Shown here in pieces: positions 6,341 to 31,694 of a stretch of DNA of 33,999 nucleotides. The translations under genes were made by a program, and so were the position numbers. The stretch's first letter is position 1; each line of letters begins with the position of its first letter. The notes under the pieces are model-generated. The model saw only the letters and a list, made by a program, of their open reading frames with translations, searched no databases and was not told where the DNA came from. Source of the stretch: a virus; the IMG/VR virus record IMGVR_UViG_3300043466_002107, positions 1 through 33,999 of that record; one strand, given 5' to 3'.

Positions 6341-7537
6341 ATGTCTGACATCAACGAAATCAAAGCCCTGGCCGAAACCCAAGGCACATTGCTGGCCACC
6401 ACCAAGGAACTGAAATCCTGGATGGAAAAAGCCAACGGCGAAATCGCTGCTGTGAAAAGCATCGAATCGGAAACAAAATCTGCAATGGAAAAACTCGCAG
6501 CCAAGGCTGGTGAGTTGACCGACAAGTGCTTGGAACTCGAGCGCAAGATGACTGCTGGCAAAGAAGACAGCCAACAAGCCGAGCAATCGTTTGGTGAGCA
6601 ATTCGTGAAAAGCGATGCTTTCCAAGCTATGGCCCAAGGTCGCAGCAAGTTTGCCCGCATGGAGTTCAAGACTGCCATCGTGAACGCCACAGGCCAAAAC
6701 CAGCCCCTGGTTGCTGCTGCCCGTGTTCCTGGCATCATCAACAACCCCAACCGTGTTTTGACCATCCGCGACGTGTTGCCTGTTGGCCGCACCTCTAGCA
6801 ACCTGGTTGAATTCACCAAAGAAAACGTGTTCACAAACAACGCTGGCGCTCAATACTCCAGCCCTGCCCGTGAAAACGTGACCAAGCCTGAGTCCGGCAT
6901 CACCTTCACATTGGCCTCGGCTGCTGTGGTGACTTTGGCTCACTTCATCCCCGTTTCGCGCCAAGTGCTCGACGATGCTCCACAGCTTCAAAGCTATGTG
7001 AACGGTCGCCTGACATACGGCCTGAAGCTGGAAGAAGAAGACCAACTGTTGAACGGTGCTGGCACAAGCGGCAACCTGTCCGGCATCTTGGCCTCTGGCA
7101 ACAACACTGCTTACAACCGTGCAGCCACTGGCGACACACGTTTGGACGCATTGCGCAAGGCGATCACCCAGGCTGCATTGTCTGAGTACACCGCCGACAC
7201 CATCGTGTTGAACCCTGAAGACTGGGAAGCAATCGAGTTGCTGAAGACCTCCTACGGCGAATACATTTTCGGCGGCGATATGGGTCCAGTCGACGGCATG
7301 GCTCCTCGCGTTTGGGGCAAGCGTGTGGTGGCCACCAACTCCATCGCTGAAGGCACTTTCCTGGTCGGCGCCATGAATATGGGCGCTCAGATCTGGGATC
7401 GCATGGACGCTGCTGTGCAAATTTCTTACGAAGATGGCGACAACTTCAAGAAAAACATGGCAACTCTGTTGGCCGAAGAGCGTTTGGCACTGACGGTTTA
7501 CCGTCCAGCCGCCTTCATCAAAGGCACATTCGCTTAA
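6341..7537 (+). CDS. Major capsid protein, HK97 gp5 family
   Basis: A 398-residue HK97-fold capsid protein. The first ~105 residues are a charged coiled-coil-like scaffold domain (delta domain) that the preceding protease would remove. The mature part begins near the GRSKFARMEFKTA region and shows the family pattern VLTIRDVLPVGRTSSNLVEF, the E-loop segment, ISRQVLDDAPQLQSYVNGRL in a slightly varied form, and a C-terminal FKKNMATLLAEERLALTVYRPAAF. AAAGGA sits just before ATG 6341. A strong intrinsic terminator follows directly, which should set the high capsid-to-downstream ratio. Confidence 0.96.
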   Translation: MSDINEIKALAETQGTLLATTKELKSWMEKANGEIAAVKSIESETKSAMEKLAAKAGELTDKCLELERKMTAGKEDSQQAEQSFGEQFVKSDAFQAMAQGRSKFARMEFKTAIVNATGQNQPLVAAARVPGIINNPNRVLTIRDVLPVGRTSSNLVEFTKENVFTNNAGAQYSSPARENVTKPESGITFTLASAAVVTLAHFIPVSRQVLDDAPQLQSYVNGRLTYGLKLEEEDQLLNGAGTSGNLSGILASGNNTAYNRAATGDTRLDALRKAITQAALSEYTADTIVLNPEDWEAIELLKTSYGEYIFGGDMGPVDGMAPRVWGKRVVATNSIAEGTFLVGAMNMGAQIWDRMDAAVQISYEDGDNFKKNMATLLAEERLALTVYRPAAFIKGTFA

Positions 7538-7549
7538 TCAGCGACATCC

Positions 7550-7601: not shown

Positions 7602-8042
7602 ATGGAAAAAGTCGAAGTCGTGGCCACAAGCCACTTTTCAGACAGTCGAATCGGCAGCGTTTCACGCAAGCAACGGCTGTTTATCCCGGTTCAAGTGGCC
7701 GAAGACTTGCACAGCATTGGCCTGGTGCAGTACCCAAACAACCAGGCAACAGCCACAAAAAACCCACAGATCGGACTGCTGGCCGATGGTGGGGGCGTGT
7801 TGCCTGCATCATTGCCAGCGGGCCAAGCCTTACAGCCGAAGACTGTGATGCAGTTTCCAGCACAGGATGGGCAACCATCGCCATCAACGACACATACCGA
7901 CGAGCAGGCTTTGCCGACGTCCTCTATGCCTGCGATTTCCAGTGGTGGCGAGTCCATGCCGAAAAAGCGCGGTCGACCTTCAAAGGCGAGTGCTGGACTC
8001 AAGACGAACAAGCCGCCAGAAAATATGGGATCCATCGAATAG
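7602..8042 (+). CDS. Small head-region protein (zero-frame product)
   Basis: A 146-residue protein directly after the capsid terminator, with a GAAGG-type ribosome binding site. The first ~50 residues (starting MEKVEVVATSHF, with RKQRLFIPVQVAEDL and SIGLVQYP) resemble the short beta-barrel-like proteins found between capsid and connector genes in related phages. The rest is low in complexity, rich in Pro, Ser and Gln, and includes an AT-hook-like PKKRGRPSK near the C terminus. From 7764 onward it overlaps, in another frame, a well-conserved-looking domain (see 7763-8389). It may therefore be one of two products of a -1 frameshift, or its second half may be incidental. No function is assigned. 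Confidence 0.65.
   Translation: MEKVEVVATSHFSDSRIGSVSRKQRLFIPVQVAEDLHSIGLVQYPNNQATATKNPQIGLLADGGGVLPASLPAGQALQPKTVMQFPAQDGQPSPSTTHTDEQALPTSSMPAISSGGESMPKKRGRPSKASAGLKTNKPPENMGSIE
7757..7763 (+). promoter_or_regulatory. Candidate -1 ribosomal frameshift site (A AAA AAC)
   Basis: In the frame of the gene starting at 7602 the codons are ACA AAA AAC CCA, giving the canonical slippery heptamer A AAA AAC. Six bases later ATCGG (7770-7774) can pair with CCGAT (7783-7787) around an 8-base loop, which is the usual spacing for a stimulator, although the stem is short. A -1 slip leads exactly into the frame that is open to 8389 and has no start codon of its own. A one-base sequence error is the main alternative. 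Confidence 0.55.
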
Positions 8043-8389
8043 GCTCAGAAAACCTGCCTGGACTTGGCCGATATGACATCATCCACCAGGGCGGCAATTC
8101 AGGGTATCAGGCGATCAATTTGGCTTACCTGTGGGGCGCACAGACGATCATTTTGATGGGCCTTGATTGCAGCAAAGCCCCTGATGGCAAAGATCACTGG
8201 TTTGGGCAACATGGGCCGGAACTCACACAGCGCCAGCCTTATGATCTGTGGCAGGCAAAATTCCCAAGGCTTGCACAAGATCTCAAAGATGATGGCGTGC
8301 GCGTCATCAATTGCAGCAGACAAACGGCGCTCACTTGTTTTGAGCGCATGACACTGGAAGAGGCTATAAAACTATGCTCACACTCCTGA
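7763..8389 (+). CDS. Start-less SGPSL/GGNSGYQA domain protein, probably made by -1 frameshift
   Basis: This frame is open from the capsid stop to 8389 but has no ATG, GTG or TTG before the TTG at 8120, which lies deep in the domain. The encoded sequence is clearly protein-like: ACIIASGPSLTAEDCD, IAINDTYRRAGFADVLYACD, WTQDEQAARKYGI, HQGGNSGYQAINLAYLWGA, LMGLDCS, HWFGQHG and RVINCS. It matches my memory of a family in Burkholderia-type phages called norphogenetic or glycosyltransferase-associated, normally beside a GT-A glycosyltransferase, as here. With a slip at 7757-7763 the product is join(7602..7763,7763..8389), 262 residues. Alternatively, loss of one G from the run near 7789-7794 would give a gene from ATG 7786. 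Its stop overlaps the next start. Confidence 0.7.
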   Translation, partial: PTDRTAGRWWGRVACIIASGPSLTAEDCDAVSSTGWATIAINDTYRRAGFADVLYACDFQWWRVHAEKARSTFKGECWTQDEQAARKYGIHRIGSENLPGLGRYDIIHQGGNSGYQAINLAYLWGAQTIILMGLDCSKAPDGKDHWFGQHGPELTQRQPYDLWQAKFPRLAQDLKDDGVRVINCSRQTALTCFERMTLEEAIKLCSHS

Positions 8390-9099
8390 CCACCACAGGC
8401 AGCAGGCCACAGGCTTGGAAAATCTGCCAAAAACTCATGGCCCGACAGACCTATACAGGACAAGTGCGCTGGATCGTGGTTGATGATGGCGAAAAAGAGC
8501 AAGAAATCGACTTCAACCCCATGCGTGGCGTTTGGCATATGGAGATATACAGGCCAGAGCCTCTATGGCAGCCTGGACAAAACACACAGGCGCGAAACCT
8601 GCTGACAGGTTTGGCCGTGGTCAAGAATGAAGAAAATCTGGTCATCATCGAGGACGACGATTTTTATGCAGACGATTGGTTGGAAACTGTCGAAAAGCAG
8701 TTGCAAAAGGCAGAATTGGTTGGTGAATCAAATGCCAGGTATTACAATATAAAAAAGCGAATGGGCCGCGAGATGGTCAATCGCACGCATTCGAGCTTAT
8801 GTTCAACGGCCATGCGGGGGCAGGCCATTGAGACTTTTCGCAGCGTATGCCGACCAGGGATTGAATTTATCGACCACATTTTGTGGCAAGCCCACTCAAA
8901 CAGGCAGATTTTTGACGGTCACCGGGTGGTGGGAATCAAGGGTTTGCCAGGTCGACAAGGTATCGGCATGGGCCATCATGAAAAATTTACCGGCACACGC
9001 GATAATGATGGAAAATTGCTGCTTGAGTGGGTTGGCCCCGATGCGGTCGGCTTTTACATTGAGGATCAGGTCAAATGGCGCAAACAGTCAGAAAAGTGA
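8374..9099 (+). CDS. GT-A fold glycosyltransferase family 2-like
   Basis: A 241-residue protein with the GT-A pattern: an N-terminal LTLLTTTGSRPQAW strand-turn, VVDDG at about 36-39, QARNLLTG, and IIEDDDFYADDW, where EDDD at about 93-96 provides the DXD-type metal and nucleotide-sugar site. GIEFIDHILW and a C-terminal GMGHHEKFTG may form the acceptor side. It would transfer a sugar from a nucleotide donor; the acceptor is unknown, but its place among head genes points to a virion protein or a host surface sugar. It overlaps the preceding gene by 16 bases and the following connector gene by 25. Confidence 0.82.
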   Translation: MLTLLTTTGSRPQAWKICQKLMARQTYTGQVRWIVVDDGEKEQEIDFNPMRGVWHMEIYRPEPLWQPGQNTQARNLLTGLAVVKNEENLVIIEDDDFYADDWLETVEKQLQKAELVGESNARYYNIKKRMGREMVNRTHSSLCSTAMRGQAIETFRSVCRPGIEFIDHILWQAHSNRQIFDGHRVVGIKGLPGRQGIGMGHHEKFTGTRDNDGKLLLEWVGPDAVGFYIEDQVKWRKQSEK

Positions 9100-11629: not shown

Positions 11630-12034
11630 ATGTTTGATATTTCAGCCCTGGCAGTGAAAGAAACTGCCCTTGTTAATTTGGAAGCTGTCGATGGTGAGGC
11701 TTTGCTGGATGCCGAAGGCAAGCAGTTGAGCATCACTGTTTATGGCCCAGGCTCGAAAGCCTTCCAAAAAGCCACAGCAGTGCGAAATCGTGCGATTCTT
11801 GAGTACGTCAAAAAGGGCGGAAAAAAGATGAAGGACAACGAACAGCGCGAATTGGACTCAGATTTTCTGGCCTCTTGCACTGTGTCTTTCAATGGCTTCA
11901 CATACAAAGATTTCACTGGCGTGGAAATGTTCCGCGAGGCATACAGTGACCCGTCGATCGGCTTTATCACCGAACAAGTGAACAAGGCGATCAGTGACTG
12001 GGCAAATTTTACGCCTCAGTCTGCGAAGACCTGA
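11630..12034 (+). CDS. Tail assembly chaperone, short form (G-like)
   Basis: A 134-residue protein that would coat the tape measure during tail assembly, equivalent to lambda gpG. ATG 11630 has AAAGG at 11619-11623; an in-frame extension to 11534 runs through the leader hairpins and is rejected. The sequence starts FDISALAVKETALVNLEAVDGE, given in two parts FDISALAVKETALVN and LEAVDGEALLDAEGK, and has a charged KKGGKKMKDNEQRE helix. Near its end the slippery heptamer A AAT TTT (12004-12010) allows a -1 shift into the frame open to 12492. Confidence 0.85.
   Translation: MFDISALAVKETALVNLEAVDGEALLDAEGKQLSITVYGPGSKAFQKATAVRNRAILEYVKKGGKKMKDNEQRELDSDFLASCTVSFNGFTYKDFTGVEMFREAYSDPSIGFITEQVNKAISDWANFTPQSAKT
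12004..12010 (+). promoter_or_regulatory. -1 ribosomal frameshift site of the tail chaperone (A AAT TTT)
   Basis: In the G-like frame the codons are GCA AAT TTT ACG, giving A AAT TTT, which fits the X XXY YYZ rule. The -1 frame opens only six bases before this site (stop TGA at 11995-11997) and then continues with protein-like sequence YASVCEDLILYARQLAWF. GCCTC (12013-12017) can pair with GAGGC (12045-12049) shortly downstream. This matches the conserved G/GT arrangement of siphophages. Confidence 0.85.
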
Positions 12035-12492
12035 TCCTCTATGCGAGGCAGTTGGCATGGTTTAACGCTGTGCCAACTGTGCCCGACAAGGGCAAATCTG
12101 TGGCTTCAGCAGACACAAAGCCTGAGCAGTTGACCAGGGCGCAGAAAATTGAGCGCAATGGTGGATTTCCGCGATTTCCAAATGTCGGTGACGCTGAGTA
12201 TGTGATAACCTATTGGCACGACCTTGGGGTGGTGGAATCTGGCGCGATGGGGCCAATTCCTCTGTCATCAAAGGAGATTTTGAGTTGGCAAGAATGCACT
12301 GGTGTTGACCTTCAGGCATGGGAATTCAGGGTTTTGCGCGAGATGTCGCGCAGGTATCTGATTCAGGCAGAAGAGAGCAAGAAACCAGAATGTTCACCAC
12401 CTTTTGGTGATCCAGTCAACGAGTTTGACAGGGGCATCGTGAGTAAGAAGGTGACCAACGCATTCCAGGCATTCATACAGGCTAAGAGGTAA
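12010..12492 (+). CDS. Tail assembly chaperone, frameshifted extension (T-like)
   Basis: This is the -1 frame part of the long chaperone. The full product is join(11630..12010,12010..12492), 287 residues, equivalent to lambda gpGT, which links the tape measure to tube subunits. The extension begins YASVCEDLILYARQ and contains YVITYWHDLGVVESGAMGP, LSSKEILSWQECTGVDLQAWE and LREMSRRYL. There is no convincing independent start: a TTG at 12052 is inside the protein-like sequence and has no clear ribosome binding site. The stop is three bases before the tape measure ATG. Confidence 0.83.
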   Translation, partial: YASVCEDLILYARQLAWFNAVPTVPDKGKSVASADTKPEQLTRAQKIERNGGFPRFPNVGDAEYVITYWHDLGVVESGAMGPIPLSSKEILSWQECTGVDLQAWEFRVLREMSRRYLIQAEESKKPECSPPFGDPVNEFDRGIVSKKVTNAFQAFIQAKR

Positions 12493-17753: not shown

Positions 17754-19795
17754 TGCTTGCTGACAAACTCAGAGCGGCTACTGCTGCGGCCAAGCCCAAA
17801 GCATTGGCCGTGGCTCACGTGGGTTCACCTTTTGTTACTGTGTACTCATGGGGCGATAGTGGCTTTCGTGGGGTGTACTCTAGCCCAGCAACACTTCCAG
17901 CAAGTTCTGGCCTCGGTGTTTCTTTCAGCCCCAACGGCTCTTCCATTGCTGTAGTTCACAACACTACACCTCGCATCACAGCCTACCCTTGGAGCAGTTC
18001 AGGTTTTGGCACAAAATACGCCAATCCAGCAACGTTACCAGCAAGTACTGGCTATGCTGTAGCATTCAGCCCTGATGGCTCTGCTATTGCTGTAGCGCAT
18101 GGCACGACCCCATTCATCACGGCATACCCTTGGAGTGGATCAGGATTCGGCACTAAGTACGCTAACCCCTCAACACTGCCTGTCAATAATAGCTACGGTG
18201 TTTCTTTCAGCCCTGATGGTAGTGCTGTCGCTGTAGCTAATGACAGTACACCCTCTATCACTGCCTACCCTTGGAGCGGTTCAGGTTTTGGTACTAAGTA
18301 TGCTAATCCCTCAACACTTCCAGCGGGTACTGGCAACGGTGTCGCATTTAGCCCTGATAGTTCTGCTATTGCTGTAGCGCATGGCACGACCCCATTTATC
18401 ACCGCCTACCCTTGGAGCGGCTCTGGTTTTGGGACTAAATATACAAACCCAGCAACGCTACCCACCGGCAGCGGCAGCGGTGTCTCTTTCAGCCCTAACG
18501 GCAGTGCCATTGCTGTAGCGCATAGCATCTCGCCTTTTATCACCGCCTACCCTTGGAGCGGTACTGGTTTTGGCACTAAGTACGCTAACCCTTCAACACT
18601 TCCTGGAACTCAGGGCAACGGTGTTTCTTTCAGCACAGACGGTTCTGCTATTGCAGTTGCTCACAGTGGAGCACCATTTATCACCGCCTACCCTTGGAGC
18701 GGTTCTGGTTTTGGCACTAAATATGCTGACCCAGCAATTCTTCCGCCTAGCTCTGGCAACGGCTGCGCTTGGTCTGCAGTGGGCGACACACCGCCACCGA
18801 TTTATTCTTTGGCTGTTTCGCACACCACAACACCATTTATTACCGCATATCCTTGGAGTGGTTCTGGATTCGGCACTAAATACGCTGATCCAGTAACACC
18901 TCCAGCGGGTAATGGCAACGGTGTTGCATTCAGTCCTAACGGTGGGTTTATTGCTGTAGCTCACAGCATCACACCTTTTATCACCGCCTACCCTTGGAGC
19001 GGCTCTGGTTTTGGTACTAAATACAGCAATCCGGGAGCACTGCCTGCGAGTACTGGCAACGGCTGCGCATTCAGCCCTGATGGCTCTGCTGTTGCTGTGG
19101 CCCACCCCAGCAGCCCATTCATAACGGCCTACCCTTGGAGCGGTTCGGGATTCGGCACTAAGTTTTCCAATCCTGGAACGTTACCAGCAAGTACTGGCTA
19201 TGCTGTAGCATTCAGCCCTGATGGCTCTGCTATTGCTGTAGCTCATGCCAATACACCATTCATCACCGCCTACCCTTGGAGCGGTTCAGGTTTTGGCACT
19301 AAGTATGCTGATCCCGCAACACTGCCTGCGAGTACTGGCAACGGCTGCGCATTCAGCCCTGATGGCTCTGCTGTTGCTGTGGCCCACCCCAGCAGCCCAT
19401 TTATCACCGCCTACCCTTGGAGCGGTTCGGGATTCGGCACTAAATACAGCAATCCTGGAACGCTGCCTGCTGGCACTGGCAACGGCGTCGCATTTAGCCC
19501 CAATAGTTCTGCTGTTGCTGTAGTACACAACGGCTCCCCATGTGTTACCGCTTACCCTTGGAGCGGTTCAGGTTTTGGTACTAAGTACGCCAACCCCTCA
19601 ACAATTCCAACAGGCAATGCTGCCAACGGTGTGGGATTCAGCCCGGATGGCTCTGCTATTGCTGTGGCCAATAACCTTACACCATTTATCACCGCCTACC
19701 CTTGGAGTGGTTCTGGTTTTGGAACTAAGTATGCTGACCCCTCAACACTGCCAACAGGTGTAAGCAGTGGCATTGCTTTCGGTAAAATCAATTAA
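17753..19795 (+). CDS. Tail receptor-binding protein with 14 propeller-type repeats
   Basis: A 680-residue protein whose residues 18 to the end are 14 tandem repeats of about 47 residues with the core IAVAH-x4-PFITAYPWSGSGFG then TKYANP-x2-LP and GVAFSPDGSA, given in short parts. The pattern (AVAH strand, P-W-S-G turn, SPDGS-x-IAVA) is that of WD40/TolB-like beta-propeller blades. Repeats 1-7 and 8-14 are separated by a divergent linker with TPPPIYS, so two seven-bladed propellers are inferred. ATG 17753 overlaps the previous stop; an extension to 17621 lies in another gene. It is probably the host-recognition protein at the tail tip. The exact receptor is unknown. Confidence 0.85.
   Translation: MLADKLRAATAAAKPKALAVAHVGSPFVTVYSWGDSGFRGVYSSPATLPASSGLGVSFSPNGSSIAVVHNTTPRITAYPWSSSGFGTKYANPATLPASTGYAVAFSPDGSAIAVAHGTTPFITAYPWSGSGFGTKYANPSTLPVNNSYGVSFSPDGSAVAVANDSTPSITAYPWSGSGFGTKYANPSTLPAGTGNGVAFSPDSSAIAVAHGTTPFITAYPWSGSGFGTKYTNPATLPTGSGSGVSFSPNGSAIAVAHSISPFITAYPWSGTGFGTKYANPSTLPGTQGNGVSFSTDGSAIAVAHSGAPFITAYPWSGSGFGTKYADPAILPPSSGNGCAWSAVGDTPPPIYSLAVSHTTTPFITAYPWSGSGFGTKYADPVTPPAGNGNGVAFSPNGGFIAVAHSITPFITAYPWSGSGFGTKYSNPGALPASTGNGCAFSPDGSAVAVAHPSSPFITAYPWSGSGFGTKFSNPGTLPASTGYAVAFSPDGSAIAVAHANTPFITAYPWSGSGFGTKYADPATLPASTGNGCAFSPDGSAVAVAHPSSPFITAYPWSGSGFGTKYSNPGTLPAGTGNGVAFSPNSSAVAVVHNGSPCVTAYPWSGSGFGTKYANPSTIPTGNAANGVGFSPDGSAIAVANNLTPFITAYPWSGSGFGTKYADPSTLPTGVSSGIAFGKIN
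17804..19792 (+). repeat. Tandem 141-bp repeat array (14 units)
   Basis: The DNA repeats with a 141-base period matching the 47-residue blades. The most constant segment encodes TAYPWSGSGFGTKY. Synonymous differences show the array is old in part. However, 19039-19119 is identical to 19321-19401, exactly 282 bases (two units) apart, which points to a recent two-unit duplication or gene conversion. Long arrays of this kind are prone to recombination and to assembly collapse. Confidence 0.9.
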
Positions 19796-31600: not shown

Positions 31601-31694
31601 AGGTTTACGACCCCGGCTAGGGTAGCTCCCGAAAAGCGGATTGAACCACCGCCTGCCGCAAGGTCTTTCAAATGGTTCGACATCAGAGGTTCAG
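31601..31694 (+). promoter_or_regulatory. Structured leader of the primase-helicase gene
   Basis: A 94-base non-coding gap. GGG-TAGCT-CCC (31620-31630) and GCGG...CCGC (31636-31652) can form hairpins. TGAACC (31642-31647) can pair with GGTTC at 31674 or with GGTTCA at 31688-31693, which overlaps the AGAGG ribosome binding site (31685-31689). Alternative pairings of this kind suggest translational control. No tRNA or known riboswitch was recognised. Confidence 0.4.

Follow-up and report, generated by a model that had tools for sequence, protein, structure and literature searches.

Probable -1 frameshifting in a capsid-adjacent small gene of tailed phages, giving access to a start-less sialyltransferase-like domain

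Directly behind the major capsid gene of the viral record IMGVR_UViG_3300043466_002107 lies a reading frame that raises a simple question: how is a domain translated when its frame offers no start codon? The window (the whole stretch of 33,999 nucleotides that was analysed) contains a frame that opens at 7538, right behind the capsid stop, and ends at 8389. In the stop-to-stop listing, its first ATG, GTG or TTG is the TTG at 8120, just as the original prediction had stated for the region from the capsid stop onwards. The same prediction had called the sequence of this frame protein-like, and it does match PHROG 4603 ('alpha-2,3-sialyltransferase', E 4.8e-48) over residues 9-196, covering the whole domain, which begins at about 7787. 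A small gene, referred to here as the donor, overlaps this frame (Table 1), and the donor frame is the one from which a -1 slip leads into the enzyme frame, giving a fusion of 262 aa as had been calculated.

The answer put forward here is that the small gene 3' of the major capsid gene very probably undergoes programmed -1 ribosomal frameshifting, which would yield a short protein together with a minor fusion of N-domain and enzyme. Sequence comparison supports the two frames, the direction of the shift and roughly where it occurs, and it supports the fusion being a product under selection. We further infer that the ribosome and not the polymerase slips, at an efficiency that would leave the fusion the minor product, that the N-domain may bind the capsid and that the fusion may dock a glycosyltransferase on the head. 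The joining of a small capsid-adjacent protein to a start-less domain had been the core of the original prediction, and it is strongly supported by 54 clusters of start-less relatives, by a switch of wobble positions, by an enrichment of slippery heptamers and by a relative in which the fusion occurs in frame.

Table 1. Positions of the capsid, donor, enzyme and neighbouring features in the window
Feature	Positions	Strand	Basis
Major capsid gene, directly 5' of donor	6341..7537	+	Pfam Phage_capsid E 1.8e-54
Donor ORF, ATG start, 146-aa short product	7602..8042	+	ORF listing
N-domain coding part, 46 codons, common to both putative products	7602..7739	+	AlphaFold; third-position substitutions dominate in relatives
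Candidate slip site 1, C CCA AAC, -54 from domain start	7733..7739	+	CCCAAA core kept in clade
Candidate slip site 2, A AAA AAC (site of the original prediction)	7757..7763	+	Sequence; lost in L010-L012
Predicted stem-loop, possible stimulator, 9 nt 3' of slip site 2	about 7773..7824	+	-35 kcal/mol, z about -2.6
-1 frame part of 262-aa fusion, assuming slip at site 1	7740..8386	+	PHROG 4603 match; AlphaFold
Dual-frame overlap of ~300 nt: short-product tail and enzyme	7740..8042	+	ORFs in both frames
Glycosyltransferase-2-like gene, overlaps enzyme 3' end	8374..9099	+	Pfam Glycos_transf_2 E 0.0012, below cutoff

The product of the start-less frame can be judged from profile and structure comparisons. 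Its AlphaFold model reaches a pLDDT of 95.6 and a pTM of 0.92 (the AlphaFold alignments consisted of rows from the window and from the loci of its relatives), and the ASGPSL motif aligns among the window enzyme, D3, PAJU2 and P1. CstII profile matches have E-values of about 0.6-0.95, and the match of the model to ST6GALNAC2 (prob 0.97, TMq 0.49, E 7e-3) is listed beneath dehydrogenase matches of lower TM-score. The best biologically sensible matches are thus to sialyltransferases, none of them significant, and the similarity is weak. The enzyme may be described as a putative, possibly head-docked, glycosyltransferase-like protein. The glycosyltransferase-2-like gene at its 3' end has a counterpart in a relative (L043) that lies above the Pfam cutoff (E 9.1e-6). 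In two other relatives (L071, 3001-4485, and L067, 2720-3793) the enzyme frame runs on into a further stretch, which in L071 matches PHROG 6804 and, below the cutoff, glycosyltransferase family 9.

The donor product consists of a folded N-domain (residues 1-44; pLDDT about 95 for residues 1-40 and low after about 45) and a disordered tail that carries the basic motif KKRGRPSK. Comparison with Pfam gave no match for the donor, nor did a tblastn search for phage homologues with the donor sequence of the window. Foldseek matched the N-domain to the C-terminal domain of lambda gpFI (2lsm; prob 1.0, TMt 0.63), with a non-significant E-value of 0.13. Gene position and this weak fold match suggest that the donor may encode a head protein.

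Relatives were gathered by scanning viral contigs, bacterial genomes and phage records, and were grouped into 65 clusters at 80% identity. In 54 of these, to which D3 belongs, no start is present that the enzyme could use, and the donor ORF runs through the junction without a stop; in a few of the 54, the enzyme frame contains a single weak, unconserved GTG or TTG. The enzyme frame has a serviceable start in the other 11 clusters, which were assigned to this class by inspection and include PAJU2, P1 and phiNP. Pfam identified Phage_capsid as the upstream neighbour in 10/10 startless loci tested. The own-start clusters are mostly distant from the capsid gene and without a donor, with the exception of L139 and L143, which adjoin it. 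On the tree, the class label changes 9 times, with at least 6 changes forced by well supported branches, and the two arrangements have therefore been interchanged repeatedly.

According to the original prediction, reads with one G fewer in the G run, or homologues with an ordinary start, would speak against a frameshift. Homologues with their own start turned out to be a minority, mostly without the donor gene, and almost every close relative has the same G5 run (7791-7795) as the window (L007-L009 and L011-L018). With one G gone, an ATG at 7786 would come in frame (by inspection), so that a false or mutated base could have split a normal gene. This explanation carries next to no probability: the frame arrangement and the G run recur in separate assemblies, the arrangement is also present in isolate-derived D3-type records, and signatures of purifying selection in both frames argue against a decaying gene. 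Because it recurs in relatives, the arrangement in the window is not an error, and a sequencing error at the G5 run was rejected on the conservation of the run in other assemblies.

In L139 the N-domain and the enzyme are encoded by one ordinary ORF 3' of the capsid gene (N-domain HMM E 5.8e-7, with L139 outside the training set; one contig). The fusion can therefore be the encoded product. The HMM did not detect the N-domain in L143, the other own-start locus adjoining a capsid gene, which is only suggestive of a fusion. Another candidate for an in-frame fusion, L073, was dropped (N-domain HMM E 0.13, not adjoining the capsid gene).

The place of the shift can be followed through the substitutions in gapless relatives. 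Upstream of about -60, counted from the start of the domain, these gather at the third positions of donor codons, whereas from about -35 on they gather at the second positions, which are the wobble positions of the -1 frame. Within the clade of the window, about 4 independent pairs are available for placing the switch between -54 and -30, which is a small number. Constraint on the -1 frame hence begins near the slip site and not at the domain, which is not what would be expected if translation of the enzyme began independently, at a non-AUG codon or a hidden start inside the -1 frame. Such a start is very unlikely on other grounds as well. A near-cognate or start codon does occur 3' of the last -1 stop and 5' of the motif in 36/54 clusters, and a few relatives have an in-frame TTG or GTG 5' of the domain (D3 GTG/TTG at -42; L080 TTG). 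However, such a codon is accompanied by a strong Shine-Dalgarno-like sequence in only 2/54 clusters, or in 8/54 under a looser criterion that is satisfied by the donor ATGs in 39/54. Start-free members of the D3 clade retain the gene, and in L139 it is fused in frame. Simple reinitiation is unlikely, as the donor stop lies beyond the start of the domain.

The D3 clade is largely made up of isolate-derived phage and prophage records. In two members without any start (L231 and L234), the -1 frame is open only from -21 and -27, and the heptamer C CCA AAG, invariant throughout the clade, lies at -18. In E. coli, C CCA AAG was the most efficient motif measured for -1 shifting, reaching up to 54% (PMC4066793). 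In D3 (L002) and Psp6 (L005), the public annotation begins the enzyme about 100 nt late and loses the ASGPSL motif; for orf7 of D3 this is because the annotated gene starts 96 nt into the domain. Psp6 belongs to the startless class, yet has no clear slip motif.

Across the startless clusters, a heptamer of the type X XXY YYZ is found in the correct phase in 38/54, compared to 8/54 and 8/54 in the other two phases. Synonymous shuffles gave 14.2 +/- 2.8 (max 22), and AAACCC alone occurs in 20 clusters against 5.8 in shuffles; these counts are descriptive, since inspection of the loci preceded the test and some motifs are shared by descent. A AAC CCY, C CCA AAR/C and C CCT TTN, all with a proline codon after a C, are common forms, as are runs of A or T. 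Six of the 54 clusters scanned contain no recognisable slip motif. With a stimulator, C CCU and C CCC tetramers are weakly shifty in E. coli, while A AAC CCA stays below the threshold (PMC4066793).

The A and T runs (A6/A7 or T6-T8, in the window and in some lineages) would be compatible with transcriptional slippage, in which the polymerase on the A6 run and not the ribosome changes the frame. In most clusters, however, the site is C CCN or A AAC CCY and has no run of this sort, and the A6 run itself is lost in L010-L012; slippage of this kind in place of ribosomal frameshifting is very unlikely.

Over all clusters, no general downstream RNA structure was found above control windows (mean z -0.60 vs control -0.45). 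A stem-loop is present in the clade of the window and in L242/L243. These two and L238, all relatives of D3, carry a perfect GGCCGCTGGC/GCCAGCGGCC-type hairpin soon after a C CCT site, a possible stimulator. An Rfam scan gave no match besides an int-alpA RNA just over threshold (31610-31675), which lies elsewhere than the frameshift region.

Two in-phase heptamers come into question in the window itself. The original prediction had rightly read ACA AAA AAC at 7755-7763 and placed the slip there. A AAA AAC is a proven IS frameshift site that also shifts in E. coli (PMC4066793), and it has a better spaced stem-loop than site 1. A structure 3' of it is indeed predicted, but the 5-bp hairpin proposed originally is not the best one, the longer stem-loop of Table 1 being preferred. 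In most clade members this stem-loop has z-scores of -1.9 to -5.8 (L013: -0.5). The original prediction had proposed to see whether relatives keep the heptamer and the lack of a start codon: absence of a usable start extends over 54/65 clusters, and A AAA AAC is gone from L010-L012. The second heptamer, C CCA AAC at site 1, has a core that is better conserved within the clade (CCCAAA in 13/13 members). Site 1 occupies codons 45-46, where the folded N-domain ends. A relative with 89% identity (L087) has A AAC CCC at this position, and most neighbouring clades have A AAC CCY. C CCA AAC is absent from the motifs listed with more than 0.10% shifting without a stimulator in E. coli (PMC4066793). 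One may lean slightly towards site 1, and both sites are possibly used; the wobble data in this region are few. The predicted frame-junction peptide is LFIPVQVAEDLHSIGLVQYPNQPGNSHK for a slip at 7733 and NPTDR for a slip at 7757.

Whether the short product has a role of its own can be asked of its tail. Over 53 clusters, the tail charge is +4.0, compared to +1.1 expected from synonymous shuffles of the enzyme frame, RGRxKK-like motifs close many of the donor tails, and no stop interrupts the donor frame just beyond the junction. It is therefore improbable that only the fusion matters and that the 146-aa protein is a by-product with a tail devoid of function, even though L139 makes the fusion only and the charge of the window's own tail is not significantly above expectation (p 0.47).

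In the proposed mechanism, the majority of ribosomes would read the donor ORF to its end and produce the 146-aa protein. A minority would slip one base back at 7733-7739 or 7757-7763, where the folded domain ends or just past that point, and go on to 8386, generating the 262-aa fusion of N-domain and sialyltransferase-like enzyme, the latter part having no start codon of its own. The frameshift would fix a low ratio of enzyme to structural protein, in a Gag-Pol-like manner, and the fusion may, probably together with the downstream glycosyltransferase-2-like gene, modify virion or host glycans. Many phages, D3 included, appear from their sequences to make the sialyltransferase-like enzyme only via a -1 slip in a small capsid-adjacent gene. 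A broader reading is speculative and rather doubtful: a widespread, unrecognised Gag-Pol-like strategy of tailed phages, in which a virion-borne glycosyltransferase on a capsid-binding domain, in few copies per head, would add glycans to the virion or target those of the host. Cultured phage D3 offers a testable prediction, namely the fusion protein and possibly virion glycosylation. For annotation, the locus is a case of a conserved recoded gene that has been missed or mutilated, the D3 enzyme having been annotated without its motif.

Frameshifting in phage heads, outside the tail chaperone, had been called rare in the original prediction; precedents are the capsid-gene frameshifts of T3/T7 (gp10A/10B), A2, A118/A500 (-1) and PSA (+1) (PMC5009743). 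As proposed for the window, slippage in a head gene of these phages leads to a structural protein and a longer version of it, and sets their ratio. In those systems, however, the coat protein itself is extended (with an Ig-like domain in several, not in T7), whereas in the window a small post-capsid gene gains an enzyme-like domain through a long dual-coded overlap.

The tail assembly chaperone pair G/GT is alike in that slipping by -1 within the late operon of a phage leads to a short and a long form (Xu et al. 2004, cited in PMC10885494); the genes, their position and the domain differ. A likely G/GT pair is also present in the window, at 11998-12492, recognised by position and arrangement, with an A AAT TTT heptamer at 12004-12010 and a -1 frame that opens at 11998. 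Further downstream, a long ORF contains 13 copies of a 141-bp repeat (17885-19753; FITAYPWSGSGFGTKYANP repeats), propeller-like in look.

PmgO of P1, whose gene is non-essential (PMC10695390), and gp10 of PAJU2 share the enzyme domain with the window, but have an ordinary ATG, lack a donor and do not adjoin the capsid gene. The arrangement of the window recurs in D3, where orf6.5 follows the capsid gene, orf7 lies in the -1 frame and C CCA AAG stands between them, although the two are annotated as separate genes. On the lambda map, the gene of gpFI follows the capsid gene E. This post-capsid position is like that of the donor, and the C-terminal domain of gpFI is the non-significant fold match of its N-domain; to our knowledge, neither a frameshift nor an enzyme is associated with gpFI.

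In the open-access literature, no account of the gene pair as frameshifted and no such annotation was found. Capsid-gene frameshifts and Gag-Pol are already known, while the pair of capsid-adjacent gene and enzyme is undescribed in the literature found. It would add a phage head-gene frameshift outside the coat protein and the tail chaperone. A likeness in design is offered by retroviral and totiviral Gag-Pol, where a structural part is likewise joined to an enzyme by frameshifting, which can bring the enzyme to the particle (PMC5009743). Here the virus is a dsDNA phage, the enzyme is transferase-like and not a polymerase, its packaging is putative and no homology is claimed, so that the locus would be a DNA-phage parallel to Gag-Pol.
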